Positions 441 through 17,573 of a stretch of DNA of 18,963 nucleotides are shown piece after piece (within the stretch, counting starts at the first letter, position 1; every line of letters begins with the position of its first letter). The notes below the pieces were generated by a model. It did not search any database and was not told where the DNA came from. It was given only the letters and a program-made list of their open reading frames with translations. Source of the DNA: an uncultured Prevotellaceae bacterium (GTDB taxonomy: Bacteria; Bacteroidota; Bacteroidia; Bacteroidales; Bacteroidaceae); assembly GCA_947306845.1 (NCBI GenBank), contig CAMZHP010000024.1, forward strand, positions 1 through 18,963, written 5' to 3'. The position numbers and the translations under genes are program-made.

Positions 441-1481
441 ATGAAAATACTGGTAACCGGAGCCGCAGGATTCATCGGTTCCAAAATCTGCCACCTGCTG
501 GCACTCAGAGGTGACGAGGTGGTAGGACTTGACAACATCAATGACTATTACGACGTGCGGCTGAAAGCGGGCCGACTGCGTGAACTGGGCATAGCGGCCG
601 ATGATTCATGTGACCTGCCCTGGCATACGATAATGGAGAGCACAGTGCATGGCAATTTTCGCTTCATCCGCATGGGCCTCGAAGAGAAGGAAGCGCTCGA
701 CACGCTCTTTGCCTCCGAGCATTTCGACAAGGTTGTCAACCTTGCCGCGCAAGCAGGTGTGCGCTATTCCATCACCAACCCCTACGCCTATCTGACCAGC
801 AACCTCGTGGGTTTTCTCAACATCCTCGAAGCATGCCGCAACAACCCTGTACAGCATCTGCTCTTCGCCTCATCGAGTTCGGTCTATGGCCTCAACTCCA
901 AGGCTCCCTTCTCAGAGGAAGACAAGGTGGACGCGCCGGTGAGTCTTTATGCGGCAAGCAAGAAGTCCAACGAACTGATGGCGCACAGTTACAGCAAACT
1001 TTACGGCATCCCTGCCACCGGCCTGCGCTACTTCACCGTCTATGGACCATGGGGTCGTCCTGACATGGCTCCGATGCTCTTTGCCAGCGCCATCTCCCAG
1101 GGCAAGCCCATCAACGTGTTCAACAACGGCGACATGATCCGCGACTTCACCTACATTGATGACATTGCCGCAGGTTCCATCCTCTGCCTTGACAAGCCTC
1201 CTGTGGCTGAGCGATGCGACAACGGCGTGCCCTTCAGGGTTTACAATATCGGTTGCTCCAACCCCGTACGCCTGATGGACTTCATCAGCGAGATAGAGCA
1301 AGCATTGGGCACCGAGGCCGTCAAGATCATGAAGCCCATGCAGCCTGGCGATGTCTACATGACCAATGCCGACACCACACGTTTGGAGTCAGAGATTGGC
1401 TACAAGCCACAAGTCCGCCTCCACGAGGGCATCCAGCGATTCATTGAGTGGTATCAGTCGGAAAAAAATCCTCTTTGTTAA
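441..1481 (+). CDS. NAD-dependent epimerase, UDP-glucuronate 4-epimerase type
   Basis: This is a 346-residue extended short-chain dehydrogenase/reductase, the usual length for nucleotide-sugar epimerases. The N-terminus has the Rossmann glycine motif GAAGFIG (residues 7-13) and an acidic residue after beta-2 (D31 in GLDN) for NAD binding. The catalytic set is the serine cluster at 144-147 and Y170-A-A-S-K174. The stretch around that motif (PVSLYAASKKSNELMAHSYS) and the following TVYGPWGRPDMAP are typical of the UDP-glucuronate 4-epimerase group (CapI/LpsL type), which makes UDP-galacturonate for capsule, O-antigen or exopolysaccharide. An approximately 20-residue segment (about 52-72) separates the N-terminal region from the beta strand FRFIRMGL. 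The ATG at 441 is the only sensible start because the glycine motif follows directly. A related specificity (another UDP-hexuronate or UDP-hexose) cannot be excluded by eye. Confidence 0.9.
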   Translation: MKILVTGAAGFIGSKICHLLALRGDEVVGLDNINDYYDVRLKAGRLRELGIAADDSCDLPWHTIMESTVHGNFRFIRMGLEEKEALDTLFASEHFDKVVNLAAQAGVRYSITNPYAYLTSNLVGFLNILEACRNNPVQHLLFASSSSVYGLNSKAPFSEEDKVDAPVSLYAASKKSNELMAHSYSKLYGIPATGLRYFTVYGPWGRPDMAPMLFASAISQGKPINVFNNGDMIRDFTYIDDIAAGSILCLDKPPVAERCDNGVPFRVYNIGCSNPVRLMDFISEIEQALGTEAVKIMKPMQPGDVYMTNADTTRLESEIGYKPQVRLHEGIQRFIEWYQSEKNPLC

Positions 1482-1551
1482 TGCATCATGCACAGCACAT
1501 TCCAGTTCACCCTCGGCTATAAATTCTCACTCTTTTAGTCTCGATGAACGC

Positions 1552-1601
1552 ATACACAAAACCGCCCCTGCATCTCGTGATGCAGGGGCGGTTTTGTGTA
1601 T
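1552..1601. terminator. Bidirectional rho-independent terminator between convergent genes
   Basis: The left arm (1552-1573) and right arm (1580-1601) are perfect reverse complements over 22 bp; one more C-G pair leaves a TCGT loop. The GC-rich core (CCGCCCCTGCAT) is flanked by AAAA on the left and TTTT on the right, so the structure works as a terminator in both directions: for the epimerase gene on + and for the seven-gene operon on -. The outermost paired base (1601) is also the last base of the stop codon of the transpeptidase-like gene. Confidence 0.92.
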
Positions 1602-4327
1602 CAGTAATAATTTCTTGTCATGTCATACAGTTTTCTGAGGCGATCGGCGGAATTGCTGAAGAAGTTGCGAGCATGCGATGACTGAAGGCCCGAGTAACCT
1701 TCGCACACTCTGCACTGCTTGCCCGGCCTGCAATGGTTGCACTGATACGACCGGGTGATGCGCACCACGCACACGATGCCCTTGGCAGGTCGGTTGTTCA
1801 CCACATTGTTGGCATATTGTTCATTGTCCATCAGTGCAAAAGTATACATGCCGATGTCCACATACCGATTGTTGCCACCCAGCATCGGGAACTCATACCT
1901 GATATAGGAATCGGGCGTTCCCGTTTTGGAGAACAGCGTCAGGTGTGTGTGTTCGCTCTGATTAAGTTCCACCACCCTGTTGCGCATGGGAGAAAGCAGG
2001 CCACCATTCTGTTGTGCGTCATGTAGTTTGGCAAGGAAGGTGTTCCAAGTGCTGTTGATCTGGTTGACAGACCTTTCTCCGAACACACTTCCAGGGTAAT
2101 TGGGACCAGCCTGGATAAGCGAGGGCAGAGAGTCGCCACGCTGCTTAATGAACGAGGCGCATACCTGCCGCTTGCCAATCATGCGGCACCATGCCTCAGC
2201 CACCTTGATGCAGTTCCACATATTGTCGCCCTGACCCAGTGTCCATGGCACCAACCGCTGATGGAATTCATCTCCGTCATAGAAGCGGTCGAGCCTCAGG
2301 TCCGTACATTCTGGTGTGATCTCATCCAGCCCGAAATGTTTCTGCTCATTATCTAATGAGTCATTGACGAACAATCCCTTAAACAAATTGAGATCGTTGA
2401 CATAGCCTTTGTCGTAATTGGTGTTGTAAACATACGACAGCCAATCTGTAAAATAACGGTTACGTTGATTGATGTTCTGAGCGTCCTCCGCCCTTCTGAA
2501 CATGAGATAGTGGTTCCGGTCATTGCTCAGCGTGAAGAAGTTGTTGCTGCCATCCACGGGCAATGTCGTCGTGGCAGCATCCAACCTCTCATTGGTCATG
2601 GCCAGCGCAGCCAGTGCCACCGGATAGACATCATCCGACCTCGAAAGGAAGGTAGTAAAGTCGCACCCACCCCAATGACTGGATGATTTTTTCGCCCACA
2701 CATGAGTTCTCCTTCCAAAGAAATCCACATCACCCGAGGTTCCGTCCCAATGATAACGATGTGGACTTGCTGTGTTCAAGTCCAATAGGTTGGGGTTGGA
2801 GAGGACGGCAGGCAAAGCCACAAGAGGTTTAAACACAGACCCCACAGACCTTCTTGACAACGACGTGTTGCGCACCGTCATCTTCATGGTCTCGGGATAG
2901 TCGTCATAGTCGAACAAAGTGGTATAGAAGGGAGTCGCCAGCACCTGCCCGGTAGAGATATCCATCACCGTCACCGACATGTCATATTGCTCGCGGGTCT
3001 GTCGGGCTGGCTTGCCACTCCTTATGGTTTGTTGCATCTGATGCACATAGTCTTTGGCTTCCTGCTCAAATTCCTTGGAGAGCAGCGGGTCGATGGACAG
3101 GTCAACCCTGGGCACGTTGTCCCGATTGGAGAGATGCCGTGAGAGTCCCCTCAGCATCTGCTGGGTGAAAAGGTCGGTCTGGGAGGGATCGATGAAGAAG
3201 CGGCTCTGCCCCATGTTCGACTGCACCAGGCACGATAACATGCGGGAAGGATCTTGCCTCTGGATGACGAACTCACCGAGTTTTCTGGCATCTTCGTCAT
3301 ACACCAGCAACTTCATGCCATCCACAAAGGGAAGGATAGAGGGGCGCTGTGCCCCTGTTTCCGGCCTTTTATACATTTTTGCCTTTCCCTCTCTGATGAC
3401 CATGAGATCGGTGCTGTGCGAGATGAGCAATGAGTCATGGGAATAACTAAGCATGAAGTCTGCTCTTGCTGTGCCATTCTCCTGCTCCCGGAGATCAATG
3501 TTGATACTGTGTGGCTCTCCGCTCTTGAAAGCTCTCAGATAATAGTCATAGTAATTGATATCACCTCTGACGCCCTTGAGTGTGCCTTCTCTCATGACAG
3601 CATGGAAATGCAACGGGTTGTCACGGGTGAGCCTACTCTCATGGTGCAGCGGCAGCACACTGTTTCCGTATGTGAGGAATACGACGTCACTGTCATTGAA
3701 CAGACAGTTGGGTGCACCCGTCACGATGCCTGTCCATGGATTTTTTGCCAACGCCACCTTGAACATGGAGGGCAACAGTTTGACCGCCTTCACCTCAATA
3801 GGACGAACGTGATTCTCTCTTGTGTTTGCGCCACTGCAAATGATTCTGAAGAATGTCTCGTCGAGTTGTTCCCCCTGTCGCTGCAACAACTGAGGCAGGC
3901 GACTATTGTAAAAGAATTGTCGGAGTGATTCGCTCTTGATACGCTCCGGATGAATGGCCACCAAGCGAAGGTCGGAAGCCTCGATATATGGTTTGTGGGC
4001 CTCGCCGTAAGGCAAGGCAAACTCCAGAGCAGGGTAACGCTTGTTGAGGCTGTCGAGACAAGTGGCATTCACCGAGCTATTGACATCAGCCACCAACTCG
4101 CTCAGCAACAAGTTGGCCTTGCCCACAAACCCCTCATCATCTTCCACTTTTGAAGACGGGTCATATAGGCTCTCACGGCTTGCCCTGCCCAGGGGTGTGA
4201 GTCCCTGGAGGAAAGAAAAGATGAAGGCGAGCAACAGGATGAGCACCGGGATCCCTGCCACCAGGAAAGGTCTGAGCATGACCTGCCTGTCCTTGTGGAG
4301 CTGTGGGTCGATTCTTGGTTCTTCCAT
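1601..4327 (-). CDS. Class B penicillin-binding-protein-like transpeptidase (operon gene G)
   Basis: Predicted D,D-transpeptidase that cross-links peptidoglycan outside the inner membrane; last gene of the operon. From the ATG at 4327 it has 908 residues: a short charged cytosolic tail, one membrane anchor (about 20-42), about 360 residues without a recognisable domain, then a transpeptidase domain from about 400 onward. Visible motifs are RVDLSIDPLLSKEFEQEA (the usual lead-in strand and helix), SVFK (S497 nucleophile, K500), SDD at 564-566 in the place of SxN (an SxD form is known from PBP2-type enzymes), GQG at 698-700 and KTGT at 801-804. The protein is much longer than usual class B PBPs (about 600-700). 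Near the C-terminus it carries a CxxC-x5-CxxC cluster (C863, C866, C872, C875). An in-frame TTG at 4363 would add 12 residues and overlap the upstream TGA stop as TTGA; I prefer the ATG because those extra residues look unremarkable. The pairing with a SEDS-like gene in the same operon supports the call. Confidence 0.85.
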   Translation of the reverse strand: MEEPRIDPQLHKDRQVMLRPFLVAGIPVLILLLAFIFSFLQGLTPLGRASRESLYDPSSKVEDDEGFVGKANLLLSELVADVNSSVNATCLDSLNKRYPALEFALPYGEAHKPYIEASDLRLVAIHPERIKSESLRQFFYNSRLPQLLQRQGEQLDETFFRIICSGANTRENHVRPIEVKAVKLLPSMFKVALAKNPWTGIVTGAPNCLFNDSDVVFLTYGNSVLPLHHESRLTRDNPLHFHAVMREGTLKGVRGDINYYDYYLRAFKSGEPHSINIDLREQENGTARADFMLSYSHDSLLISHSTDLMVIREGKAKMYKRPETGAQRPSILPFVDGMKLLVYDEDARKLGEFVIQRQDPSRMLSCLVQSNMGQSRFFIDPSQTDLFTQQMLRGLSRHLSNRDNVPRVDLSIDPLLSKEFEQEAKDYVHQMQQTIRSGKPARQTREQYDMSVTVMDISTGQVLATPFYTTLFDYDDYPETMKMTVRNTSLSRRSVGSVFKPLVALPAVLSNPNLLDLNTASPHRYHWDGTSGDVDFFGRRTHVWAKKSSSHWGGCDFTTFLSRSDDVYPVALAALAMTNERLDAATTTLPVDGSNNFFTLSNDRNHYLMFRRAEDAQNINQRNRYFTDWLSYVYNTNYDKGYVNDLNLFKGLFVNDSLDNEQKHFGLDEITPECTDLRLDRFYDGDEFHQRLVPWTLGQGDNMWNCIKVAEAWCRMIGKRQVCASFIKQRGDSLPSLIQAGPNYPGSVFGERSVNQINSTWNTFLAKLHDAQQNGGLLSPMRNRVVELNQSEHTHLTLFSKTGTPDSYIRYEFPMLGGNNRYVDIGMYTFALMDNEQYANNVVNNRPAKGIVCVVRITRSYQCNHCRPGKQCRVCEGYSGLQSSHARNFFSNSADRLRKLYDMTRNYY

Positions 4328-4359
4328 ATTCTTGGATTCTGAATGCAAACAAGTCTGTT

Positions 4360-7068
4360 TCAATAAGCGATGCTCAGATTTGCAGGCAATTTTTTGGCCA
4401 GGTATCTTACCACTGCAAAATAATACTTGGCATCAAGCGTACTCTGTGACAGCGAGTCATTGGCCATCAACGCAGTATTGGGGATGTCTATCGAACAATC
4501 CTTGACACTGACATTCTGAATGCGGTATTTCTTGTCGCACACGCTTTCAAGCAGCGGCTTTTCCAACGTGACGACAAGCGTGTCGGTTTTTCCCGTTTGT
4601 TCCCCCTTCTCATTCAGCGTGAGTGCTCTTACTAAGGCTGTGTCGGCATTCTCAATACCATTCATCTTGTAGAACACCTTGCTGAGCGGAAGCAGGTTGG
4701 CCGTCTTGCTGAAAGCCAGATGTGCCATCTCCAGCGAATCCACCTTCACCATGCTGACACTGTCCCAGTCGGCCACATAAGCCAGCTGTTGCATCAGGTT
4801 GTGCTGCTGGTTGCCCTCCCAAACGATGGACACGCCACTTGTTGGTGATGGCTTCTCACTGGTGAACAGGAATTTCCCTGCCGCCAGTCCACCCAGGGCA
4901 CAAATGATGGCGGTGCATACCCATGCCACCAACCTGATCCTCTTCCAATTGTGTGTTCCTTTCAGGTCACGGAACAAATGATCCAACTCTTTTGACATTT
5001 TTGTATTGCTTTTCTTGATGGTCGATATGAATAAACTGATGATAGGATAAGCTCCCTCCGCATTGTTCTTGTATCTGACGGCAGAACTGCTGTCCTGAGG
5101 GGCTTTTTTCTCCTTTTTGAGCGAGGCAGCATTGATGAAATGGGTTTTGATATCGCTGCCCAGACCCCTTGCTGCCGTTTGTCCGAAATAGGTTTGAAGG
5201 CGTTCACTGACCACCTTGTAAACCAGCGGACAGTTTTTCCGGATAGCCGCGATGCGAGGCCACTCATGCACATCCAGCAACTGCTCCTTGCTGAGCAATG
5301 GCCTATAGGCCTCGTTCCTCTTGCCTCCGAATATGGTATGCTGCACAGCAGGGAGCAATGTCTCTCTCACAAAATCATCCCAGTCCTTGGGCAGGACGCG
5401 TACTACACTCAGCACGTCCTCGCAACTGTCAAACCGCTGGATTTCGTTTCCCTTCGACAACAGCGCATAGAGTTCATCTTCCCTCATCTGCTTCAATGCC
5501 ACGCTTTCCGGCGACTTGTCCCTGGACTTCGATGCCAGCATCCTTCCGAAAGCCGCCATCACCGCCCTGGCATCAACAAATGAATAGGCTGAAGCAGCAT
5601 CGCGCAACCATGATTCTATCATTTCCCGATAAGCAGGTTTCAGGCTTCCTAGTCCCTCGGGTACCGACACCTGCTTGGGCGGTTGAAAATACTCGGTGGG
5701 AATGAAAGGATATTTCCTCATGCACTCGACAATCTTCCGCATCGATTTCAACTCGGGAACCACCAAAGTGCCAAACAATTCTCCGAAAGCCGCCGTCACC
5801 CCTTTGTTCTTGATGCAGCCCAGTTTCTCGAAAATTCCATACCAGTTGATGACAGACTGGGCGTCACCCAGTCTCAAAGCTCTCAGAAATCGCCCGTCAA
5901 GCCGTTCACGCTGCTCTTGGCTGAGTCCTTTTTTAAACAGAAACGAGTGGCGTCCCTCATAAAGATAGCCTGGCAGTGCCTTTTCCTGCAACTGCGCGAC
6001 GCTGTTCTCATCGTAATGCATCAAATTGAACACATCCTCATGGAAACCCTCCATCGTCCATCCAAGCGAGGCATTGCTCATTGCTTTGGCATACACCTGC
6101 TGTGACTCACCGTCCATCTTGGCATAATAGTCTCTGAACATTTTCCATCCACCGGTGCCTAGTTGGACAAAGCTGTTGCCCAGCATCCGCCAGATGGACC
6201 AGTCGCTGCCACGCAACTGCTCCGTTGACAAAGCGCCCACCTTAAAGGCTCTTTGCAATTGGCCGTAATCCATCAGAGGCTCATGCTCTCCCGGCAATTG
6301 TATGCGGAGCAGCAAACTTTCCTCGTTTTTGTCTATCCTGGCATGTTGCGTGGTGGCCTCCCCCCACGTCATGGCGACAGCATTCTGAGGAATTTGCATT
6401 CTGCTGGCTTTGTCATAGACCACGACAGGCACTCCGTCAAGCACATCGCTGTAATGCTCGTCCACACAGTAGCCAAAGGTGGCATATCTGCGAAGCCTCA
6501 TGGGCAGGTTCTCGACGGCAGCGGTCAAAGTCTGCAGATGGCCCACGAACACACCGTCGCCGAAATATTCATCTTCTACGACATCGAGCGCGATATACAA
6601 AGGTGCTCCATGCAGCAGGGCTGCCTTGATATGGCTCGCCAAAGCCTGAGCCGCTGGCGTCGACTGCGGCTGTCCGACATTGATGGCAGCGCCAGCATCC
6701 ACCCTTCCCTCCGGCATCTTTTGGATACGGGGCATGGTCTGAAAAAGCGAGGTGAGACAGAATCCTATTTTGTTCATGTCATCACGGCTCACCTCATAAC
6801 CGGCGCGGAAAGGGTAGATACGCCCCAGTGCCTTGCTCACCACATGCGAGCCCTGCACATGGATGAGTATGTACCTGTCAACATCCCTGTTGTACCGCCA
6901 CACCAGACTGGCATGCCTGGGGGACAGCACAGGAGGATTGTCAAGGAACAGTCCGCTCACATCGCTGGCATGTCGTGTGTAACCCGCCGAGTAGAAGAGC
7001 GTGGTATCGCCTATGTTATCTGGCCATGAGCCAGAGGCAAACTTTGCGATGTTGATATTCTCGACCAT
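4360..7068 (-). CDS. Large membrane-anchored protein, possibly a GTPase-associated partner (operon gene F)
   Basis: A 902-residue protein that I cannot assign with confidence. Residues 1 to about 710 contain no signal peptide or membrane segment and should be cytosolic. One hydrophobic span follows (about 712-736, RLVAWVCTAIICALGGLAAG), preceded by basic residues (KGTHNWKRIR), which predicts a cytosolic N-terminus. The last 165 residues (738-902) would be periplasmic. No P-loop, protease or nuclease motif is visible. The size, the soluble N-terminal region and the position directly downstream of two paralogous GTPase-like genes recall the GAP1-type GTPase-associated proteins described with bacterial double-GTPase systems, but this resemblance is from memory and weak. 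The ATG at 7068 lies 18 bp after the preceding stop; its TGA (4360-4362) precedes the transpeptidase ATG by 32 bp. A role linking cytosolic GTPases to the periplasmic synthase is inference. Confidence 0.75.
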   Translation of the reverse strand: MVENINIAKFASGSWPDNIGDTTLFYSAGYTRHASDVSGLFLDNPPVLSPRHASLVWRYNRDVDRYILIHVQGSHVVSKALGRIYPFRAGYEVSRDDMNKIGFCLTSLFQTMPRIQKMPEGRVDAGAAINVGQPQSTPAAQALASHIKAALLHGAPLYIALDVVEDEYFGDGVFVGHLQTLTAAVENLPMRLRRYATFGYCVDEHYSDVLDGVPVVVYDKASRMQIPQNAVAMTWGEATTQHARIDKNEESLLLRIQLPGEHEPLMDYGQLQRAFKVGALSTEQLRGSDWSIWRMLGNSFVQLGTGGWKMFRDYYAKMDGESQQVYAKAMSNASLGWTMEGFHEDVFNLMHYDENSVAQLQEKALPGYLYEGRHSFLFKKGLSQEQRERLDGRFLRALRLGDAQSVINWYGIFEKLGCIKNKGVTAAFGELFGTLVVPELKSMRKIVECMRKYPFIPTEYFQPPKQVSVPEGLGSLKPAYREMIESWLRDAASAYSFVDARAVMAAFGRMLASKSRDKSPESVALKQMREDELYALLSKGNEIQRFDSCEDVLSVVRVLPKDWDDFVRETLLPAVQHTIFGGKRNEAYRPLLSKEQLLDVHEWPRIAAIRKNCPLVYKVVSERLQTYFGQTAARGLGSDIKTHFINAASLKKEKKAPQDSSSAVRYKNNAEGAYPIISLFISTIKKSNTKMSKELDHLFRDLKGTHNWKRIRLVAWVCTAIICALGGLAAGKFLFTSEKPSPTSGVSIVWEGNQQHNLMQQLAYVADWDSVSMVKVDSLEMAHLAFSKTANLLPLSKVFYKMNGIENADTALVRALTLNEKGEQTGKTDTLVVTLEKPLLESVCDKKYRIQNVSVKDCSIDIPNTALMANDSLSQSTLDAKYYFAVVRYLAKKLPANLSIAY

Positions 7069-7086
7069 AATATATTAACGTTTCGT

Positions 7087-8559
7087 TTACAATTTACTTT
7101 GTATGTATTGCAGATGCTCTCCCCGGTGATGCATTCCCTCAGAGCGTATGCCATTTTGCAGAAGGATATCGGTGAGCAACTGATAAGCACCCAGGCACAG
7201 ATGGCCGATGCGCCCGCTGTTGACCTCTGCAGTGAACGATCTCACCCGTCCGTCCTCGTCATGATAGAAACGAGTGATATCGTCGGGGTCGTTGATGTAA
7301 ATGCGGCAGGAGTCATCAATGGGTGTCGCTGTGAAATAGACATGCGGCGGAAGCCGCCATCCTGGTTGCTGTGTCAGTTCATAGACATTGATCCGGTCGC
7401 TGAATTTGGAGCGAAGCCTTGCGGCCAGGCCACTCTCCACCGACGCGTTGAGCAAGTGCCAGAAACCCTGCCCCACCCCATCGCCAAGACTTTGGCGGAT
7501 ATGAAGCGGCCAGTCTTCGGGAAGAGAGGCGTCCGACGTGCCGCCATTGTCTCTCATCTGCCTGATCACTTCCTGCATCATCCATTCGTAGAGCGTGTTG
7601 CGTACCTCAGCATGGCCAGAGGCATTCTGCCCAGTCCGTACATTTCTAGAAGCAGGAGCCATTCTTCCCAGCAATCCGTCAGCCCCTCTGAAAGCCAGGT
7701 AGGCATGAGGCTGGTGGCCTGAGTTCTCCTTCATGAACTCCGCGACACTCTCTGCCAGATTGCCAACGTTGTTGTCCTGCATCAGATTGTCACAGACAAT
7801 CAGGTCTGTGGCCTGCTGGCAATAGATGAGCGGATAGAAATAGAAGAGCACTTGTCCCGCCCGATAGTCTTCCAATGACACCATTTGCAGGGAAGTGAGG
7901 TTCTCCCAGCAATCCTCTATGGTAAGCAACACAGAGTCTGTTTGCAACTCTGTGAGATGCTGTATCAGGTAATGACCGCTGACAGGCTTGCGGTTCACCT
8001 CCTTGTAGCGTCCCTCTTGGAGAAGGCAGCGCAGGTGACTCCAGTTAAGATAATTGCCGAAGCGCTGCTGACTGCTGGCCCTGATACTGGTCCCATTCAT
8101 CAAATCGATGTTGTTGTGCACTATCAGCCGCTCTTCGTGTCCAGCAGGATTCCTCCATACCGACAAGAGGAAGAGTCCCTTGGGTCTTCTCTCTATCATC
8201 TGTTTCAGATTGAAGAACATGCTCATCCTGTCGTGGCTCAGGTCAAACACCTCACCAGGAATGTTGAGAAAGTCCACCTCCAGTCTTCTGCCTAATGTGC
8301 TTCGCGACAGCCAGGCCCCATAGTGGTTGTCTGGCCTGCACGCATAGCGCTCCGTGCCCCTCATCCCCCCTGTCTCGCTGTTGAACGTATCATAGAAATA
8401 GGTTCCGAAGCTGCTATAAGGATAGCTCAGGGGCAGTTCCTCAGGCACATATCCGAGCAATCCGAAGGCATGGATGAGGTCGTAGAGCAAATAGCTTTTG
8501 CCACTTGCTCTCTCGCCGACGACAGCGATGCGGAGACGGTTTGTAATACCTGTCATCAT
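7087..8559 (-). CDS. P-loop GTPase-like protein, paralogue 2 (operon gene E)
   Basis: A 490-residue soluble protein with a Walker A motif at its very N-terminus, GERASGKS (residues 15-22), after the beta strand LRIAVV. A DFLNIPGE motif at 96-103 fits the switch II / Walker B position of TRAFAC-type GTPases (hhDxPGE). Further blocks shared with the neighbouring gene upstream in the operon are YACRxxNHYG (72-81), TDLIVCD (251-257), HAYLAF (285-290) and the C-terminal HVYF-TP segment (406-413) followed by GAYQLLTDIL (457-466). No clear NKxD base-specificity motif is visible, so GTP over ATP is not proven. No membrane segment is seen. The start is one of two adjacent ATGs (8559 or 8556), 11 bp after the upstream stop. 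Likely role: a nucleotide-dependent switch of the operon's membrane machinery (inference); resemblance to double-GTPase family proteins is tentative. Confidence 0.85.
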   Translation of the reverse strand: MMTGITNRLRIAVVGERASGKSYLLYDLIHAFGLLGYVPEELPLSYPYSSFGTYFYDTFNSETGGMRGTERYACRPDNHYGAWLSRSTLGRRLEVDFLNIPGEVFDLSHDRMSMFFNLKQMIERRPKGLFLLSVWRNPAGHEERLIVHNNIDLMNGTSIRASSQQRFGNYLNWSHLRCLLQEGRYKEVNRKPVSGHYLIQHLTELQTDSVLLTIEDCWENLTSLQMVSLEDYRAGQVLFYFYPLIYCQQATDLIVCDNLMQDNNVGNLAESVAEFMKENSGHQPHAYLAFRGADGLLGRMAPASRNVRTGQNASGHAEVRNTLYEWMMQEVIRQMRDNGGTSDASLPEDWPLHIRQSLGDGVGQGFWHLLNASVESGLAARLRSKFSDRINVYELTQQPGWRLPPHVYFTATPIDDSCRIYINDPDDITRFYHDEDGRVRSFTAEVNSGRIGHLCLGAYQLLTDILLQNGIRSEGMHHRGEHLQYIQSKL

Positions 8560-8570
8560 TGCCGATTTGA

Positions 8571-10259
8571 TTACACGTTCCCTTGCATGATTCTCAGCAG
8601 GTCGCCCACCATGAAATTGCCTAGCTGGTGCTGCGAGAGGATGTCCATCGCCAGCTGATAGCTGCCGAAGCAGACATTGGAGTTCTGCAAATGGAAGCGA
8701 TATTTCTTGCCGTTGATGGCTTTTTCAAAATCGGGTGCCGGCCTGCCATCCTCAAGGTTGAAGTTTTGATAGATGTCATACTCGCTCGTGATGGGTGTGC
8801 ATGAGAAATACACATGAGGGACAATTTTTTCCACGGCGCTGGTGGTATTCCCCGCCCTCATCTTGGTTTTTTTCAGCAACATGCGGAATGCGTGGCCGTC
8901 ATCCCCACCCAACCGGCTGTTGATATGCGCACGGAGGTCGGGTGTGTCTTTTTTGAGATAGCCGCTTCCACCCGTCACGTCCAGCAGCGCATGGGCGAGC
9001 TGGTCGGCGTCGGCCGTCATGTTTTCTGGGGTAATGGATTCTGCAACTTCCCCCTCTGCAATTTTCTCCGGTGGCATGCCGATGAAGTCCGACAGGTCCT
9101 CGCGGCCTATAGCCAGGCTGCCATCCAGATAGTGCTGCATGGCGTAAGCGAAAAGCGAGTAGATGGCATTGCGGCGCTTGTCAGGTGACATGTCGCACAG
9201 GGTCTGCCTGTTGAGTTCCTGGTAGCTTTTCTCCCGAGGATACATGATGAAGTCCACATTGCGGAATGCGAGATAGACATGCAGTTGCTCACTCTCGCTG
9301 CAATCATCGATGAATGAGTCAAGGCCCTTGGTCAGGTCGCCAAATGACATCTCGTCAGATGGCTGGTCACTGGTAAAGATACGGTCGCATATCACGATAT
9401 CGGTGGCCATGGAACAATAATGGAAGAAGACAAAGCCTCTATCGTAGGCGTTGGCCTCGAAATCCTGAGCATCAAAGCCCAGGTCTGCAACCGAATTCGA
9501 GCGTATCCATTCCTGGATGCTCCTGATGGCAGAGTCGGTGTCATATTCAAAGAAGTGTCTGAGTAGTGAGGAGCCGCTGATTCTTGAAGCAGAGCCTCTG
9601 ACAGGCTTGAAGTGCCTCACGTTCAAATCTGAGTAGATCTGCTCCCATGTCTTGAACGACGTGACCAATGTTTTGGGATTGGTGGGTGAGGCAGCCACTC
9701 GGTCAGCGGTAGTGGGATAGGAACCCGACACTGGCTCTACCATCCACACCTGCTCACCTGTGTCAGCCATCCAAAGTGTAGCAGTGAAAGCCCTCCCTGT
9801 CCTTCGCAGTTGGTCTCGCAGGTTGGTATAAGCCTTCAGGCGTGACATCCCTGTCCTGGGTGTGGCGAAGATCTCTCCGGGGATATTGAGAAAGTCCATG
9901 TCATATCGGTCTCCCACATTGTTGTTGTGCTTGACAGAGGAGCCGTAATGGTTGCTCTGCCTGCACGCATAGAGTGGTGTACCGCCTTCGCCTCCACCCT
10001 CATCAGGTGAGTAGTTGCCAAAGTCCTTATAATGCTGGAGTGTTGTTTCCAAGGGATTGAAAATACCCGCCATGCTTTTCAGCGATGTCAGGATATCCTG
10101 CAGCAGGAAACTCTTTCCGCTTGACGTGGTACCCACCACCGCCAGACGGATATGCTTCTTGTTCCTCACACTATATCTCCAGAAATAGCCCAACTTCTTG
10201 CACACATGCTTGAGATGCACTGTGGAGAATTGATACCCCAATTTGTCGATGATACTCAT
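8571..10259 (-). CDS. P-loop GTPase-like protein, paralogue 1 (operon gene D)
   Basis: A 562-residue soluble protein, paralogous to the next gene in the operon. After about 35 residues of basic N-terminal extension comes the beta strand HIRLAVV and the Walker A motif GTTSSGKS (43-50). The common blocks are YACRQSNHYG (97-106), DFLNIPGE (122-129), TDIVICD (286-292), HVYLAF (327-332) and, near the C-terminus, HVYFSCTPI followed by GSYQLAMDIL. Between these lie regions specific to this copy, such as the acidic stretch EKIAEGEVAESI, which make it about 70 residues longer. No transmembrane segment and no clear NKxD motif are visible. The ATG at 10259 lies 43 bp after the stop of the SEDS-like gene, the longest gap within the operon. 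The pair may form a heterodimer in which the two nucleotide sites face each other; that is inference from the tandem duplication. Confidence 0.85.
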   Translation of the reverse strand: MSIIDKLGYQFSTVHLKHVCKKLGYFWRYSVRNKKHIRLAVVGTTSSGKSFLLQDILTSLKSMAGIFNPLETTLQHYKDFGNYSPDEGGGEGGTPLYACRQSNHYGSSVKHNNNVGDRYDMDFLNIPGEIFATPRTGMSRLKAYTNLRDQLRRTGRAFTATLWMADTGEQVWMVEPVSGSYPTTADRVAASPTNPKTLVTSFKTWEQIYSDLNVRHFKPVRGSASRISGSSLLRHFFEYDTDSAIRSIQEWIRSNSVADLGFDAQDFEANAYDRGFVFFHYCSMATDIVICDRIFTSDQPSDEMSFGDLTKGLDSFIDDCSESEQLHVYLAFRNVDFIMYPREKSYQELNRQTLCDMSPDKRRNAIYSLFAYAMQHYLDGSLAIGREDLSDFIGMPPEKIAEGEVAESITPENMTADADQLAHALLDVTGGSGYLKKDTPDLRAHINSRLGGDDGHAFRMLLKKTKMRAGNTTSAVEKIVPHVYFSCTPITSEYDIYQNFNLEDGRPAPDFEKAINGKKYRFHLQNSNVCFGSYQLAMDILSQHQLGNFMVGDLLRIMQGNV

Positions 10260-10302
10260 AACTTCATTTCATTGATTTCTTAAAACACGATCATTCCAAC
10301 CA

Positions 10303-13300
10303 TCAATACCATGCTCTTCCACGGCTCTTCTCACGGCAGGTGATTGCCGCCATGAAAGCCAACAGGATGGCTGTCTCCAAAGCCTCGCCGACAGCGTCCA
10401 CGCCGAATCCTGGCACAAGACGCCCCGTGAAGGGCAGACGTCCCACATAAGACAGATAGATGTAAAAACTGGTTCCCACCCACATCATCATGGCCAGCAA
10501 GCGCCACTGCATCGCCTTGGTGAGCCGTGCGTCATTGTCAAAAAATGAGAGACTGAACTGCATCACCTGCCACATCACCACAAAGAGCAACAGGAAGAAG
10601 ACCGCTGTCGTGAGATAAATGCCATACGAGCCGAAGAAAGCGGCAGGCATACTCATGTCGTTGAGCACGACAGGCGACTGTCCCGAACTGACCGAGGTAT
10701 GCAGGAAATGGTTGTCGTTGGACAGCGGGTCACGCCCTTCTCCAGGCCTCATGTAATGGCTCATGATGACCATGAACTCCGCATCGCTCTCGCTGTAACG
10801 GTATCCGCTGCGCTCCAGCTCCTCAAAGTTGGAATAGAGCATCACGCGGCGTGCAAAACGGTCATAGTTGACTTGATCAGGACGGAACAGATGACTGCAG
10901 ATGAAGGGCATGCCTACCAAGAGGATGACCAGGACCAGCAGAGAACCGTTCACCCAGTTTTTCTCTTTCTTTGCCAGATGATACTCTTTTCCCTTATATG
11001 CCGCCTTCCGCTCCATGAGAAAGAAAAAGCAGACGAGGCACATCACAAAGCCCAGATAATTGGTCATATAACCATGGTCGCCCACCATGGCAGCCGCGAT
11101 ATATGCCACAGAGATGAACAGCATTTGGCAGAAGACGGTGTGTCTCGGCATGTCGCCCTCATACATTCTCACACTGGAGAGTGCACGCGTCATGCCCAGA
11201 ATGACAACCAAGGTGATAAAGGCAGTGCCGAAGTTACCCGAGAGCTTGCCGATGGCGTAGAGCAGGACAAACAACAGGAGATGGCCTGGAAACAGGCTTT
11301 TCAGGGCAGCAAGGAAAGCATCGCACACAAACTGGGCGGAAAAGACAATGGCAACCACCGCCAAGGAAATCAACAACAGAAACAGACTGAATCCCACCTT
11401 CATCTGAACGATAGCCGAAAGCAACAACACGAAGGCCGCCAGAATCTTTCTTGTAGGATAGCCCTTGGTCATTTTCTTCCATCCACCAACGATTTTCCCA
11501 CTGGCTTGCTCACTTTTCTCCAGCCATGACCACTCTGCCTTCTCACACCATTCTGAAAGTTTGGATTTTCCAAAGACGCCGGATTTGCCTCCTAATGCCG
11601 GCCACAGCACATCCGCCACCAGCCACAAGACAAGCACCAGTCCCTCGACAAAAAGCAAGGCATAGACCACCGAGCGATGGGTATCGTTGATGCCATATTC
11701 GGTCAGCCATTTCCACGGCTTCATGCTGAAGACCTCCTCATGGAAATAAGAGTTGATGACGCCTTGGCTCACTTGCCGGTCTGCCACTCTGAAGAACACA
11801 TAACCCAGACCCGCCCAGAGCAACACACACACCAACCCATGCCACACCCTACGCAGAGGGTTTCTTTGGGTGGCGAAATGCCGGAGCGGAGTATTGATCA
11901 GCATCGCCAGACTGAAAAAGAGCAGCATCAGCAAAGCCGTGGCCACGGGAGTGATGGCTGTGATCTTTTCAAAATAAGGATAGGAGTAACTCAACTTGAG
12001 AGCGATGAGCGACTTGCAGGTACAATAGGCCAGACAGATGACCATCAGCGAAGAGAGATAAGACCTGTAGCGGCCGATTTGCCTGGGATTATAGAGCGTA
12101 GTGGTATCTCGCACATACACGGGACCACTCCTGAGCCATACCATGGTCAGCAGAACCAGGAAGACGGTGAGTGGCAACCATAGGTAACTAAAGACAAACC
12201 GCCCATCGACATATCCCACCCTGCACTCCAAGGTGTCCTTTCCCGAATGAAGGGTCACTTTCCCCAGCGCAGGAATAATGCTGGATGGGTTTTCCACCAA
12301 CTGAGCCTGGTCGTTGTTGCCTCTCACGCAAACAGAATCTTTCTGGTGAAAGAACTCCATGTTGCATACATCAAAATTGATGGCGCTTGAGAAGGCTGGA
12401 AGATAGAGGTCGCTCTTGGTGGGATAGGCATTGTTGCGCTGTTTGATGGTCAGGATGTGGCTGGCTGAACGGGCTCTCTTTCTCAAAGAATCCACCGACT
12501 CCACATAAGTGATGGGTTTGGGGTAAGTCAGTCTCAATCCCTCCTCCGACAGAATGACAGTAGCGTGCCCTGCCCCCCATTCGGTCAGCTTCACAGAAGG
12601 CTTCATCACATAGTTGACCCCATCGACCCTAAAATAGCCATCACTGGTGTTGCCATCCATATAGCACCAGTCTGCCAAACCAAAGAACTGCACCTTGACA
12701 CGTCCTGACCTGGCATCCGCCGGAATCATTCCTTCCCTGCAGTAGCCCTGTGTGGCCCCGTCCGAAATCAGAGTCGTCAGTTCATCGAGTATCACCAAGA
12801 CAATCTGGTCGTTGCTGCGCTCAAAAAAAGACCTCACCTTGCCGCGTCGCATCTGTGTGAGGCAACGCAGGCTGTCCTCATGGCTTGCTTTTCCGTCAGA
12901 CAATTTGACATAGGCCGCCAGATGACGTGCCATCACGTCTTTCTGGTTTTTGAAAGATTTCCAGGCATTCCACACATCTTTTCCCGACATTGACATTCTT
13001 AGAGTGTCGCCATCGCTGACCGGCAGCCGCAAGTTGACCTGTTGTGACGCATCATCGCGGATGACGTGCTTGTTGGGATTCTCGCCGTTGATCTTGAAAT
13101 ACTGCAAGGTGTCGCTGAGTGCCGGACTCACCGTCCACCTGAATGCAGACGACTCTGGCACATAACTGATGCGGAGGTAATCATGCGGCACGTTTCTGAT
13201 GCAGAAGTCACTATTCTCGCCAAATGTCACCGTCCTGGCATCCCCCAAAGTGTACTCATCAATGGCAAACACCAGTTTTCGGTCCACCTTGGCAGACATC

Positions 13301-13422
13301 ATCCAGCATAGTGCCATGATAACAGCCAAGAGGAAGAAAGCCACCGCATCTGCCAGATGGCTGCTTGAGTCCCTATAGTTGAACAAGCTCAGCTTATTGA
13401 GTAATTTGAATAGCAGCTTCAT
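10303..13422 (-). CDS. SEDS-family (FtsW/RodA-like) polytopic protein with large extracytoplasmic insert (operon gene C)
   Basis: Predicted 1039-residue inner-membrane glycan polymerase of the SEDS type, which joins lipid II units and works with a class B PBP. One membrane span (about 24-44) is followed by about 360 residues rich in beta-type sequence that should face the periplasm, then about ten further spans (from about 410 on). The SEDS likeness is in the C-terminal part: GDHG at 781-784 sits where FtsW/RodA have PDLG; an Asp (D922) before MSMPAAFFGSYGIYL matches the catalytic-loop TDFIFA-EELG region; and LPFTGRLVPGFG from 996 matches LP-TG-PLPF-SYGG. The second half of that last motif is changed (no SYGG). 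The frame is open back to an ATG at 13506, but the ATG at 13422 lies 10 bp after the preceding stop and is followed by a basic patch and the first span, as expected, so I use it. It is more than twice the length of FtsW or RodA. Confidence 0.8.
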   Translation of the reverse strand: MKLLFKLLNKLSLFNYRDSSSHLADAVAFFLLAVIMALCWMMSAKVDRKLVFAIDEYTLGDARTVTFGENSDFCIRNVPHDYLRISYVPESSAFRWTVSPALSDTLQYFKINGENPNKHVIRDDASQQVNLRLPVSDGDTLRMSMSGKDVWNAWKSFKNQKDVMARHLAAYVKLSDGKASHEDSLRCLTQMRRGKVRSFFERSNDQIVLVILDELTTLISDGATQGYCREGMIPADARSGRVKVQFFGLADWCYMDGNTSDGYFRVDGVNYVMKPSVKLTEWGAGHATVILSEEGLRLTYPKPITYVESVDSLRKRARSASHILTIKQRNNAYPTKSDLYLPAFSSAINFDVCNMEFFHQKDSVCVRGNNDQAQLVENPSSIIPALGKVTLHSGKDTLECRVGYVDGRFVFSYLWLPLTVFLVLLTMVWLRSGPVYVRDTTTLYNPRQIGRYRSYLSSLMVICLAYCTCKSLIALKLSYSYPYFEKITAITPVATALLMLLFFSLAMLINTPLRHFATQRNPLRRVWHGLVCVLLWAGLGYVFFRVADRQVSQGVINSYFHEEVFSMKPWKWLTEYGINDTHRSVVYALLFVEGLVLVLWLVADVLWPALGGKSGVFGKSKLSEWCEKAEWSWLEKSEQASGKIVGGWKKMTKGYPTRKILAAFVLLLSAIVQMKVGFSLFLLLISLAVVAIVFSAQFVCDAFLAALKSLFPGHLLLFVLLYAIGKLSGNFGTAFITLVVILGMTRALSSVRMYEGDMPRHTVFCQMLFISVAYIAAAMVGDHGYMTNYLGFVMCLVCFFFLMERKAAYKGKEYHLAKKEKNWVNGSLLVLVILLVGMPFICSHLFRPDQVNYDRFARRVMLYSNFEELERSGYRYSESDAEFMVIMSHYMRPGEGRDPLSNDNHFLHTSVSSGQSPVVLNDMSMPAAFFGSYGIYLTTAVFFLLLFVVMWQVMQFSLSFFDNDARLTKAMQWRLLAMMMWVGTSFYIYLSYVGRLPFTGRLVPGFGVDAVGEALETAILLAFMAAITCREKSRGRAWY

Positions 13423-13432
13423 GATGATTCGA

Positions 13433-15244
13433 TTAATTGTCGTAAATGGCATTCTGTGTCTCCCTGAGGATTCTTCTTGCCGTGTTGAAGGAATCGCCCT
13501 TTCCATTGAGACGCCTCAGCAGTGAGTCGACACTGTCGGCATAGGGTTCCAGTTTCTCTATGCGGATGTCCTCGTTTCTGTCCATGTATGAGAATTCGCT
13601 CAAGCTGAAAGCCATGTCCTCAGGATATAGCCGGATGATGCTGTCAACCTTGTTGCTGTAGTGGCGGGCACAGCTCTCGTAAGCGTTTTGCTCAGCATCC
13701 CTGATGCCCATCCTCACATCCAGGTCGTTGGTATATGGGAATTTCCGCCATTGGAGCCAATTGTTCTCCACATAGTCCACTTCCCTGATTTTCTTGCATG
13801 CCTTGCTTTTCCTGATCAGAGGCCGCACATACCCGAAATAATCATCGATATAGGTCTTGTATGCCTTGATGTCCCTGTCCTCCAGCACGCCATCATGCTC
13901 CAAGAGGTCGCCCAGTCTGCCGCTTAGCTCGTGAAGGGCATCCGTATCCTCACTCCAATGGCTTGACTCCAGCAGTCTGTTGCATTTGGCATTCAGCACC
14001 CTTGCGAAATCATTGGTCAGCGTGGAGTCACAGAAGCGGAAGTCTTCATGTGAGAGGACATTGTCTCCCGTCACAGTGTGCAGCGAGTGCTCTGCCTCCA
14101 AGTCTTTGCGCAACTCACTATAAAGCTCATAAGCCTCCTTGTAGTTCATTTTTGACATTTCTTGCTCCTTTCCCGCGAACGCCGTCTTGTAATCATAAGG
14201 CAGCATAGGAGCTGTGGGGGGAGATGTGAGCATCTCAAATGCCTTGTAGCCACCCCAGGCGATGGCAAATGCCAGCAACACACCAAGGATGGCAGCCTGC
14301 CACCACCTGCCCAGCGACAGCATTTTCCCTACCAAGCCTCGCCTGGGCTGACACTTGGGCAACAAAGCCTCTCGTAGGAATATCTCCGCATCACCGGCAT
14401 GAAGGTATGCCATGTCGCGGACAACGAACCTGCCCACGCTGAAGGGGATAGGCAGGGCATTGTAGATTTGGTTGTCATAGCAGATGTCCTGAATATTGCG
14501 CCAGAGGTCGGGCATTCCCTTGGTCACCAATGTCTGAGCGGCATTGTCCATGAAAGCATCCGGCACATTCATCAAGTCGGTCTTGGTCACCAGCGCATAG
14601 GCGCCATCGGTTTGTCCTAGAAAGCCCTGCTGCTTCAGTCCGTCTGTCACATTGAGCAATTGCCTGACCTGTTTCTGCACGTCCTGTCGGCAGTCGATAC
14701 AAAACACATGGATCTGCGGACTTTCCTTTCTCACATACATGGCGACATCCACTGGAGCGTCGGAAGGCAGGGTTGCCTCGATGAAAGAGATGGGATAGGC
14801 TTTTCCCCACCAGTTTTTCCTGTACACCGCATGATATACTTCCTTTGGCGCGTCTCCGTCACGGGGTATGGGCTGCAATTCGCCCTCCTTTCTGAACAGG
14901 TCCAACATCCTTGCAGTTCTCTCTCTCAGTGACGGAACCTCAGGAAACATCACCTGCATACCCGGAAGTGAGAGTAGCGATGCTATCGCCATCGTCTTTC
15001 CGGAATTGGGGACACCCCACATCACCACCTGAGTGGCATCGTCCATCTTGCCGCCTTCCACATCCCATACGCCCCCACACGGAAGAGCATCTTCTGCCGT
15101 ACTAAAAAACCTGCCGATGATATCGCGGCTCAGCACGCGCTCCAATTCCTCAGGCAATACCTCTCCCCTCTCCAACATCCCACGGATGTCTTCCATGCCA
15201 TAGGCACAGGGGTTGAAAACGATTTTCTTGATTGCGTCCTGCAT
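13433..15244 (-). CDS. Membrane-anchored P-loop GTPase-like protein (operon gene B)
   Basis: A 603-residue protein with a cytosolic nucleotide-binding domain, one membrane span and a C-terminal extracytoplasmic half. After the beta strand TQVVMW comes the Walker A motif GVPNSGKT (77-84). A hydrophobic strand IHVFCIDCR (178-186) and the base-recognition-like motif VTKTD (219-223, the TKxD variant of NKxD) indicate a GTPase. The span is at about 315-335 (ILGVLLAFAIAWGGYKAF); the many basic residues just before it place the N-terminal domain in the cytosol. Residues 340-603 are mostly helical, charged and probably periplasmic. The ATG at 15244 is 11 bp after the upstream stop. A GTG at 15331 would extend the frame by 29 residues into the upstream gene and is less likely. 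The architecture resembles a transmembrane signalling GTPase. It is not closely similar to the paralogous pair downstream: it lacks their DFLNIPGE and YACR-NHYG blocks. Confidence 0.82.
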   Translation of the reverse strand: MQDAIKKIVFNPCAYGMEDIRGMLERGEVLPEELERVLSRDIIGRFFSTAEDALPCGGVWDVEGGKMDDATQVVMWGVPNSGKTMAIASLLSLPGMQVMFPEVPSLRERTARMLDLFRKEGELQPIPRDGDAPKEVYHAVYRKNWWGKAYPISFIEATLPSDAPVDVAMYVRKESPQIHVFCIDCRQDVQKQVRQLLNVTDGLKQQGFLGQTDGAYALVTKTDLMNVPDAFMDNAAQTLVTKGMPDLWRNIQDICYDNQIYNALPIPFSVGRFVVRDMAYLHAGDAEIFLREALLPKCQPRRGLVGKMLSLGRWWQAAILGVLLAFAIAWGGYKAFEMLTSPPTAPMLPYDYKTAFAGKEQEMSKMNYKEAYELYSELRKDLEAEHSLHTVTGDNVLSHEDFRFCDSTLTNDFARVLNAKCNRLLESSHWSEDTDALHELSGRLGDLLEHDGVLEDRDIKAYKTYIDDYFGYVRPLIRKSKACKKIREVDYVENNWLQWRKFPYTNDLDVRMGIRDAEQNAYESCARHYSNKVDSIIRLYPEDMAFSLSEFSYMDRNEDIRIEKLEPYADSVDSLLRRLNGKGDSFNTARRILRETQNAIYDN

Positions 15245-15255
15245 CTTGGGAATGA

Positions 15256-16092
15256 TTATCGGTGATTGCCGGCATAGCGGCTCCTGGGCCGCCTGACATG
15301 CAGGTAAGTGGTCAATATCAACAGGCAGCACACAACGGTGGCCACCATACTACGGAAATCAGGCCGGTGGAGCCTGCTGAACTTTTTGTTCTCCTCACTT
15401 GGCTCAAACAAGGTTTTGCCGGATCCGAATGGCTCTGCCTTCTCACCCTTGTAAATGACGGACGACACACGGCTGTATTGTTCGGTCCAGTCTTGTCCTG
15501 CCGTCACAATATAGTGAAGGTTGCGCGGGGTGGAGATATTCCACACGCCAGCATCATGGAGGGAGGCAAGCCAGCGTTGTCTTTCTGCGCATATCGTATC
15601 GTACTCCGCAGGCATCAGCCTCCTTCTCAGACTCTCTGTCAGGCGAGTCCGCTTCGCACTGGGATACCTTTCTTTCTTCAGCAGATTGCGATAGGCCCTG
15701 ACCCGGTCCTTCGCGTAATCTTTATACATTGAGTCAATCATCGACACATCGTCGGCCGTAGAGAACAAGGTCTCCCTCAGCTGCTGCTGATGGTCGTAAA
15801 CATACAAAAATTGTGTGAATGCGATGCTGCCTGCCAGAAGGATAAGGATGGCCATCGTGAAGGCAGCCACCTCCTTGGGCAGCCCCTTGCGCTTGTCGCG
15901 CGAGGCCTTGCTCTTACACATCACCCAGATGGAATAGGACAGCAATGCCGTTCCCAGGAGCACCAATGGGATGGCCACCAGATGATTGCCTTCCAAAAGA
16001 TACTCCGTTCCCATAAAAGAGATGTAGACAAAAACGAGCAATGCCGCAATCGTCAGCAACAAGGCAAATCCTGCAATCGTCTTTTTTTGCAT
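15256..16092 (-). CDS. Membrane protein with four predicted spans, function unknown (operon gene A)
   Basis: A 278-residue protein that I do not recognise. Hydrophobic segments at about 5-28, 38-58 and 75-98 are followed by a charged, helical extracytoplasmic region of about 145 residues (100-245) and a fourth segment at about 247-265, ending in a basic tail (HVRRPRSRYAGNHR). The basic patches at 59-73 and at the C-terminus suggest that both face the cytosol. A GSGKT string at 223-227 is in the extracytoplasmic part and lacks the first glycine at the right spacing and the preceding hydrophobic strand, so it is not a Walker A site. It is the first gene of the operon; the ATG at 16092 is the first in frame and begins a typical MQKK start before a membrane span. 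It probably assembles with the other membrane components. Confidence 0.78.
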   Translation of the reverse strand: MQKKTIAGFALLLTIAALLVFVYISFMGTEYLLEGNHLVAIPLVLLGTALLSYSIWVMCKSKASRDKRKGLPKEVAAFTMAILILLAGSIAFTQFLYVYDHQQQLRETLFSTADDVSMIDSMYKDYAKDRVRAYRNLLKKERYPSAKRTRLTESLRRRLMPAEYDTICAERQRWLASLHDAGVWNISTPRNLHYIVTAGQDWTEQYSRVSSVIYKGEKAEPFGSGKTLFEPSEENKKFSRLHRPDFRSMVATVVCCLLILTTYLHVRRPRSRYAGNHR

Positions 16093-16149
16093 TACGTCTT
16101 TCTTCTACAAGAAAAGATACCCTGAATGCCTTCTTTCTATCACCAACTA
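16093..16149 (-). promoter_or_regulatory. Short gap upstream of the seven-gene operon, weak promoter candidate
   Basis: These 57 bp separate the stop of the GH28 gene from the operon ATG. Read on the - strand they contain TATCTTTT (seven of eight positions of TAnnTTTG with the last base off) with a TTGG 23 bases upstream, wider than the usual 19-21. No convincing terminator is visible; a pyrimidine/purine near-repeat (TCTTTTCTT and AAGAAAGA) would form only a weak hairpin. Transcription may therefore run through from the GH28 gene, start here, or both. Confidence 0.3.
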
Positions 16150-17466
16150 TCAGTCTATTTTCACATTTTTCACCGTACAGTTGTCGATGAGCGAGGGATC
16201 GAACGCTTTCTTTTGGTCACGCACCGTGATGTTCTCGAAAGTGAAGTCCTTCAGCTGATATTTGTCTGAGCTGCCCACGTCGAAGAAGTTCTTGCAGTCC
16301 ATATTGATGTTGCGCATGACAATGTTGTTGCAAGTTGAGAGCGGCATATCCTCCCTATCTTCTGGTTTGAAGAACTGAGTCCATGGCCTTACCACCAGGA
16401 AACTGGAGCACTGGCCCTTGATGTTCTCCACTGTGACATACTCGTAATGCTGCGGGGTGTCAGGCCTCATCTTGAGCCACAGCACACGGCTGGCATCCGT
16501 CACACTGCACCGGCGCAAAATGACATTCTTGTCGTAGAGCGACTCACTGCCCAGGGTGAGACATCCGTGCACACGTCCGTAAGTGCAATCCTCGATGATG
16601 ATGTTGCTGTTGGGACCGTTGTTAGGGTCTTGGTCAGCCCATGTGCCTTTTCCGCCCTTAAGCACCACGGCATCATCATTCACGCTCATATAGCATCCAT
16701 GGATGAGCACGTCATGGCACACATCCAGGTCGATGGCATCGCTGCTGGGAGCCTTCACTCCTGTTGTAGGCGAAAAGATATAACATCCGAGGAAACGCAC
16801 GTGGTCGCTGCGGTAAACGTGGTTGGTCCAAAACGGACTGTTGATGAGTTTTGCATCCTGGACGGTGACGTTCTTGCAGTTGGAGATATAGACCAGTCTT
16901 GGGCGAAGCGCCTCCAGGTTGGTGCACTGGCGGTTGTACTCTCTGCGAATCCAGAACTCCTCCCAGTAATTGTATCCATTGCCATCGATAGTGCCTGGTC
17001 CGGTGATGGTGAAGCCATCCAATCCATCTGCATTCACCAGCGCTGCGAAGTACTTGAGCGACTGTCCCTCCATTCTGGTATCGACCACAGGGAAGTTGCG
17101 GATGCGGTCGGAGCCTTTCAGCCGTCCTCCCTCTGCCACATGCAAGTGAGTACCCTGCTTAAAGAAGAGCGAGCCGCTGAGGAAAGTACCGCGTGGAATG
17201 ACCACCACACCGCCGCCCTCTTGCGCCGCCTTGTCGATGACAGCCTGCAGAGCCTTTGTCTGTACAATGGTACTGTCGGTGCTCACACCATACTCTGTCA
17301 CAACATACCGGCGTCCCAAGGAAGCCAAATCAACACGCGAAGTATCAGAAAACCAAGCGGGAATCGGTGTCCCGTCAGGAAACACGGAGGTCTTCACTTT
17401 TTTCTTCGCTTCGGCGCACACTGCCACAGCACACACCAGAACAATCCAAAACAGTCTTTTCATCAT
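16150..17466 (-). CDS. Secreted GH28 family glycoside hydrolase (polygalacturonase-like)
   Basis: A 438-residue right-handed beta-helix enzyme of glycoside hydrolase family 28, acting on galacturonic-acid-containing pectic polymers. A signal peptide is clear (MMKRLFWIVLVCAVAVCAEA, cleavage expected after A20). The N-terminal region has the typical TKALQAVIDKAAQEGGGVVVIPRGTF block. The four GH28 motifs are present in modified form: SSDAID (241-246) in place of NTDGID, NDD (263-265) in place of GDD, VHGCLTLGSES (299-309) in place of GHGVSIGS, and LKMR (331-334) in place of RIKT. The general acid/base aspartates (D243, D264, D265), H300 and K332 are kept, so activity is likely. The exact substrate (homogalacturonan, rhamnogalacturonan or an exo-acting mode) cannot be read by eye. 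Two adjacent ATGs (17466, 17463) are possible starts. It has its own promoter-like site and lies on the same strand as the seven-gene operon. Confidence 0.92.
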   Translation of the reverse strand: MMKRLFWIVLVCAVAVCAEAKKKVKTSVFPDGTPIPAWFSDTSRVDLASLGRRYVVTEYGVSTDSTIVQTKALQAVIDKAAQEGGGVVVIPRGTFLSGSLFFKQGTHLHVAEGGRLKGSDRIRNFPVVDTRMEGQSLKYFAALVNADGLDGFTITGPGTIDGNGYNYWEEFWIRREYNRQCTNLEALRPRLVYISNCKNVTVQDAKLINSPFWTNHVYRSDHVRFLGCYIFSPTTGVKAPSSDAIDLDVCHDVLIHGCYMSVNDDAVVLKGGKGTWADQDPNNGPNSNIIIEDCTYGRVHGCLTLGSESLYDKNVILRRCSVTDASRVLWLKMRPDTPQHYEYVTVENIKGQCSSFLVVRPWTQFFKPEDREDMPLSTCNNIVMRNINMDCKNFFDVGSSDKYQLKDFTFENITVRDQKKAFDPSLIDNCTVKNVKID

Positions 17467-17490
17467 GCCAATTAATTATTTACGTTTCTG

Positions 17491-17498: not shown

Positions 17499-17573
17499 AT
17501 GGAAAAGAAACACAATGAGCAATAAAAAGGCAAATATTTTCCATGCAAGCCGAGTATTGTCGATATTTTTATC

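Follow-up and report, generated by a model that had tools for sequence, protein, structure and literature searches.

We analysed an 18,963-nucleotide stretch of DNA (the window) from an uncultured Prevotellaceae bacterium (contig CAMZHP010000024.1, assembly GCA_947306845.1), whose minus strand carries seven closely spaced genes, A to G, running from 16092 to 1601. An earlier reading made without database searches (the sequence-only reading) had seen here a seven-gene operon ending at a strong terminator, and both points were borne out: the genes follow one another at gaps of 11, 10, 43, 11, 18 and 32 base pairs (bp), and the terminator hairpin (z -7.8) was equalled by none of 200 shuffles. The longest open reading frames (ORFs) of B, C and G begin further upstream, and the starts adopted are those common to their relatives. 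In order of transcription, with lengths in amino acids (aa), the features are:

15256-16092, minus strand: gene A, 278-aa membrane protein with three N-terminal helices and one C-terminal helix
13433-15244, minus strand: gene B, 603-aa P-loop GTPase-like protein, 11 bp from A
10303-13422, minus strand: gene C, 1039-aa protein with a predicted SEDS fold, 10 bp from B
8571-10259, minus strand: gene D, 562-aa soluble P-loop GTPase-like protein, 43 bp from C
7087-8559, minus strand: gene E, 490-aa paralogue of D, 11 bp from D
4360-7068, minus strand: gene F, 902-aa protein with a predicted longin-DENN-like front, 18 bp from E
1601-4327, minus strand: gene G, 908-aa membrane-anchored transpeptidase, 32 bp from F
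1553-1600, minus strand: terminator hairpin with a perfect 22-bp stem

Membrane helices were called by hydropathy on the window proteins, which gave four in A, one in F (near residue 711), one in G, 14-16 in C and none in D and E. Besides C and G, two products (A and F) clearly cross the membrane, as had been claimed, and B is a probable addition: its helix near residue 318 reaches a hydropathy of 1.68, just under the cut-off, which three relatives exceed.

The evidence from G supports a transpeptidase of class B penicillin-binding protein (PBP) architecture, in agreement with the sequence-only reading. The transpeptidase family PF00905 was matched by all seven members at E <= 0.1, the best at 1.4e-6 (L019); its cut-off was passed in three genomes, G of G001 and G002 fell under it, and the window protein (E 0.0014) scored 18.3 bits against a cut-off of 22.1. 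The motifs GS[VTC]FKP, S[DN]DVYP and KTGT are conserved over the seven sequences down to 30% identity, with SxxK (its serine being Ser509 in the numbering of the 920-aa ORF) and KTG present in each and the second motif reading S[DN]D where class B PBPs have SxN. Hydropathy places the N-terminal membrane helix near residue 15. No glycosyltransferase domain was found, PF00905 being the sole Pfam match at E <= 0.1; the weak NCBIfam matches were to PBP1A/1B models and covered the transpeptidase part, and no PDB sequence matched. Both G and C had been described as far longer than their housekeeping relatives. This holds for C, which has 1039 aa where the 22 SEDS ORFs picked by a motif script from Bacteroidota loci span 373-504 aa; a further SEDS from those loci is part of a fusion in a 1222-aa frame. 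G, at 908 aa, is longer but not far so, the 27 strong transpeptidase rows from the seven carrier genomes G001, G002, G046, G397, G424, G492 and G687 having open frames of 617-868 aa. Each carrier holds three or four strong transpeptidase genes other than G, and an ordinary SEDS protein was present in both of the two carriers checked for it. The C-terminus of G (window 1601-1800), a presumably periplasmic part, bears CxxC...CxxC in six of seven members, L018 lacking it.

The predicted structure of C shows a large domain (residues ~45-405), which by inference would lie in the periplasm, followed by a part with the SEDS fold (~430-1030). This fold supports the assignment of C as a SEDS-type protein. 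The sequence searches did not bear it out: the Pfam SEDS family PF01098 was matched by none of the 32 C sequences (the window and 31 of 112 matches, alignment A1), and the profile-profile comparison with SEDS (hhalign, which for C was not extended to all ORFs) gave E 0.028 over just 19 columns. Nothing usable for placing C came from Pfam, NCBIfam, PADLOC, PDB sequences, hhalign or hmmsearch. The claim that C belongs to SEDS failed in profile searches and succeeded in predicted structure. Asp922 is invariant in 32/32 sequences and falls on the TDF aspartate of SEDS in a forced alignment, which carries no statistical weight; we take that aspartate, situated in the large extracellular loop, to be the catalytic residue of SEDS proteins.

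B, D and E all contain P-loops, as had been noted, and their description as three GTPase-like proteins stands for D and E, which look GTPase-like, while for B it comes down to a P-loop, G(x)4GK[ST], and TK[TI]D in 5/5 sequences. D carries GTTSSGKS, NIPGE and RNVD, and E is 27% identical to it. Among 25 D/E sequences (alignment A7, with 10 locus or window sequences and 15 of the 84 matches from which 29 had joined the window in the 30-sequence alignment A2), G(x)4GK and PGE are invariant and the fourth motif, where present, is mostly [RK][NGSC]xD, differing from NKxD. All Pfam matches of D/E were below threshold (MMR_HSR1 7/25, DO-GTPase2 3/25, FtsK 5, AAA_16 3), and the PDB sequence matches were to EngA-type proteins at the P-loop. 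GTP is the likely nucleotide of D, E and B. An assignment of B to Gtr1/RagA (E 0.019 in one relative, under the cut-off) was dropped, and the sole PADLOC match of D, to PtuA (E 0.0003, 55 residues), was read as the P-loop.

F is built of a longin-DENN-like front (residues 1-264), a helical repeat region (~280-705), the membrane helix at ~711 and a C-terminal domain, the front being presumably cytosolic and the C-terminal domain presumably periplasmic. The predicted structure of residues 1-264 resembles longin-DENN GTPase regulators in the order longin then DENN; sequence similarity between the front and these regulators was not found. Its best structure match was TagF (PDB 9t0n), a regulator of type VI secretion. 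The F alignment (A3) holds 34 sequences, being the window and 33 of 51 matches; P0239, whose front runs in frame into a sigma-70 tail, was judged a misassembled contig and left out. The last residues of F (window 4360-4370) are oddly conserved as -AY or -PY in 28/34 sequences. For A no family exceeded its cut-off.

The C profile matched 2/395 genomes of a phylum sample, 5/399 of a family sample and 1/393 of an order sample, in each of which the reference genome G001 is counted once; without it the figures are 1/394, 4/398 and 0/392. G002 was found by a pattern scan. The closest genome found was a Prevotella metagenome-assembled genome (MAG; L001, Tb.RUG.168), in which the flanks are unchanged and the seven genes are all present in this order, and another Prevotella MAG (L002) is labelled yak rumen. 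Linkage of C and F to a GTPase-like gene is seen in 7/7 carriers, the contigs of G002 and G492 containing C in its later part only. G follows F in all six carriers whose contig continues. In the carriers, 12/12 rows of the GTPase profile lie within the operon, and over 151 family genomes this profile matched four, every one a C carrier. The earlier expectation that the genes travel together thus holds for this core, but the seven-gene set is not an invariant unit. All seven genes occur in G001 and G687, and C to G in G002, whose contig begins within C; the paralogous GTPase-like pair is found in the window and these three genomes, the other four (among them G397 and G424) having a single gene. 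In G046 and G492, tblastn on the stretches read, of which that of G492 was short, did not detect A or B. The GTPase of these two genomes carries an N-terminal extension, and between it and C lies a protein of 461 or 381 aa that has four to five N-terminal helices and one C-terminal helix and in which no P-loop was seen by eye. Pattern scans confirmed no relative of C or D/E on viral contigs and found none of C on plasmids, and the idea of a mobile element was set aside.

In G397, G424 and G687, G is followed by a co-directional GH25 gene (two Pfam-tested at 3.9e-43 and 1.8e-39, the third assigned from a similar sequence), and its adjoining position in three genomes points to peptidoglycan; the window lineage lacks it. 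The next gene after G in G046 (L018:814-1455) codes for a protein with five helices and HELTH that has a weak likeness to M50B peptidases (E 0.005, under the cut-off).

The ratio of nonsynonymous to synonymous divergence (dN/dS) against L001 lies at 0.05-0.14 across all seven genes, so the operon is constrained, and this together with the gene order common to other genomes argues that the operon is more than a chance arrangement. It is flanked upstream by a GH28 glycosidase and an S49/SppA-like peptidase and downstream by a convergent NAD-dependent epimerase; the hairpin at 1553-1600, located between convergent genes, may serve both. Synonymous divergence (dS) was 0.59-1.13 in the operon, 0.74 in GH28, 0.16 in the epimerase and 0.25 in the SppA-like gene, so that the operon exceeds the latter two flanks ~2.4-7 times (window 441-18961). 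The operon alleles have diverged beyond two of three neighbours, which suggests that alleles were exchanged between lineages; the contrast could also owe something to differing codon usage.

The data show the gene order, the conservation, the transpeptidase motifs and the predicted folds of C and of the F front. We lean, with modest confidence, towards the operon encoding a second, dedicated peptidoglycan synthase under the control of GTPase-like switches acting through F. C would polymerise glycan as a SEDS-type enzyme, with G as its partner transpeptidase. The cytosolic GTPase-like switches would be D and E, with B as a further switch, probably bound to the membrane. F would serve as transducer: its cytosolic longin-DENN-like domain would touch the switch proteins and read the state of D/E (and B), the helical repeat region and membrane helix would relay the signal across the membrane, and the C-terminal domain of F would set the activity of C and G jointly with A and C's large domain. 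The GTP state would in this way turn a local wall-building or wall-remodelling job on or off, and that job may lie in defence, apparatus building or stress. From folds, topology and linkage we infer that F passes the state of D/E to C and G; the enzymatic activities, GTP as the nucleotide, how the proteins sit in the membrane, which of them touch and which way control runs are likewise deduced. The sequence-only reading had proposed a GTPase cascade gating the synthase, which is still a proposal here, and the fold predicted for the F front is support that it had not foreseen.

An unlikely alternative relates the operon, as a membrane-bound version, to the DO-GTPase/GAP1 conflict systems, with D and E as double GTPases, F as the GAP1 component and C and G as a wall-targeting effector against phage or competitors. 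Paired GTPase-like genes, a Walker B-region glutamate after PG, a large third component and membrane-associated partners match the description given in the published account (eLife 2020, PMC7159879), and the rare, patchy occurrence and the diverged alleles (dS as above for the operon, GH28, epimerase and SppA-like gene) would suit such a role. In hhalign the best alignment of the D profile to a DO-GTPase2 spanned 95 columns including PGE at E 6e-5, but when D was compared with 23 chosen sequences a housekeeping GTPase among the controls scored higher (44.5 against 42.7), and the assignment was rejected; the controls were 20 rows, 18 of them distinct, and for L087 and L089 the frame scored was not that of the GTPase. 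D/E had no significant match to the DO-GTPase families PF19975/PF19993 (PF19993 in 3/25 at E <= 1, best 0.045). F shows no sequence tie to GAP1-N1. A likeness by eye (hairpin, helix, three strands and 'LRR..F' in both) was unsupported by hmmsearch and hhalign, which gave E 0.44 and 0.084 and rank 26 among 303 ORFs, seven of these being F relatives. GAP1-N1/N2 had no match in G001, nor among the 25 families listed, out of 33, for the 34 F members. The GAP1 protein of the Bacteroidota genome G031 entered the 303-ORF set as a fragment (L057:1-559), which fell beyond the best 30, and was compared whole separately; in that genome L068:3497-9685 encodes GASH, DO-GTPase2, DO-GTPase1 and GAP1-N1 fused to a phosphorylase domain. 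A weak GAP1-N1 match in G226 was dropped as L071 had no matching ORF of at least 150 aa. Neither GASH nor FNIII is among the Pfam matches listed for the operon proteins, and the C-G pair is constant, not variable.

We give rather little credence to the operon building an opening or anchor at one point of the wall for some surface or secretion apparatus, GH25 hydrolysis and C-G resynthesis being positioned there by the GTPases. Polarity switches of the MglA/MglB type do position machines, the GH25 gene lies after G in three genomes, and the top structure match of F is a type VI secretion regulator. Against this, the window lineage is without GH25, and inspection by eye of the neighbouring ORFs, which were not profile-searched, revealed no secretion or surface-machine genes. 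That C and G are degenerate or act on another polymer, the operon being a signalling complex without wall synthesis, seems very improbable.

Under the preferred reading of a dedicated synthase, the data suggest that some Prevotella-like bacteria possess an extra, much altered wall-enzyme pair as a switch-controlled wall builder. SEDS-PBP pairs are known mostly with housekeeping or sporulation partners; an uncommon additional pair linked to GTPase-like proteins would mean that wall synthesis can be controlled in a new way. With F, a longin-DENN-like module would stand in a bacterial membrane protein next to candidate GTPases, and if so the origin of DENN-type regulators becomes testable in a small system. 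More tentatively, the operon might be a bacterial counterpart of Rab-DENN, where a transmembrane longin-DENN protein controls GTPases that gate a private SEDS-transpeptidase synthase, the same fold possibly recurring in the GAP1 component of DO-GTPase systems and in TagF; together these would make up a single, widespread family of GTPase switches at prokaryotic membranes.

This composition did not turn up in literature searches on bacterial DENN/longin, on DO-GTPase/GAP1 and on SEDS with Bacteroidetes GTPases, most subscription papers being outside the coverage. PMC7159879 describes DO-GTPase/GAP1 systems with often paired GTPases, a third component and membrane ties, and SEDS, FtsW, RodA, longin, DENN and TagF occur there 0 times; our operon shares the often paired P-loop GTPase-like proteins, the Walker B glutamate, the large third component and the membrane proximity, but differs in that the F-GAP1 and D/E-DO-GTPase sequence ties are not significant and its partner is a SEDS-PBP pair. 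The longin-DENN module is described as a eukaryotic guanine nucleotide exchange factor module in a 2012 analysis (PMC3521125). F 1-264 is like such regulators (DENND1A/B, DENND10, Lst4) in predicted fold and domain order and unlike them in being bacterial, in lacking any sequence similarity found and in the fusion of its front to a helical repeat region, membrane helix and C-terminal domain. TagF is reported to repress through Fha binding (PMC5995506), and the operon context differs from type VI as far as seen. A possible architectural cousin is a 1221-aa fusion in a Bacteroidota genome (L056:5288-10973, G015), which also has a long SEDS protein with an N-terminal extracytoplasmic part plus, by eye, a transpeptidase-like part; there both parts sit in a single protein, the SEDS part is recognised by Pfam, and the neighbours on both sides resemble FHA proteins by eye and not GTPases. 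A further parallel is with RodA-PBP2 and FtsW-FtsI, which C and G resemble in the predicted SEDS fold with an aspartate that the forced alignment puts at the catalytic position, in the membrane-anchored transpeptidase without a glycosyltransferase domain and in sharing one operon. They depart from these pairs in that C and G are long, C bears a domain of ~360 residues ahead of its SEDS part and its sequence is unrecognised by Pfam; and where RodA-PBP2 and FtsW-FtsI have MreC or FtsQLB as neighbours, this operon has GTPase-like proteins and F.
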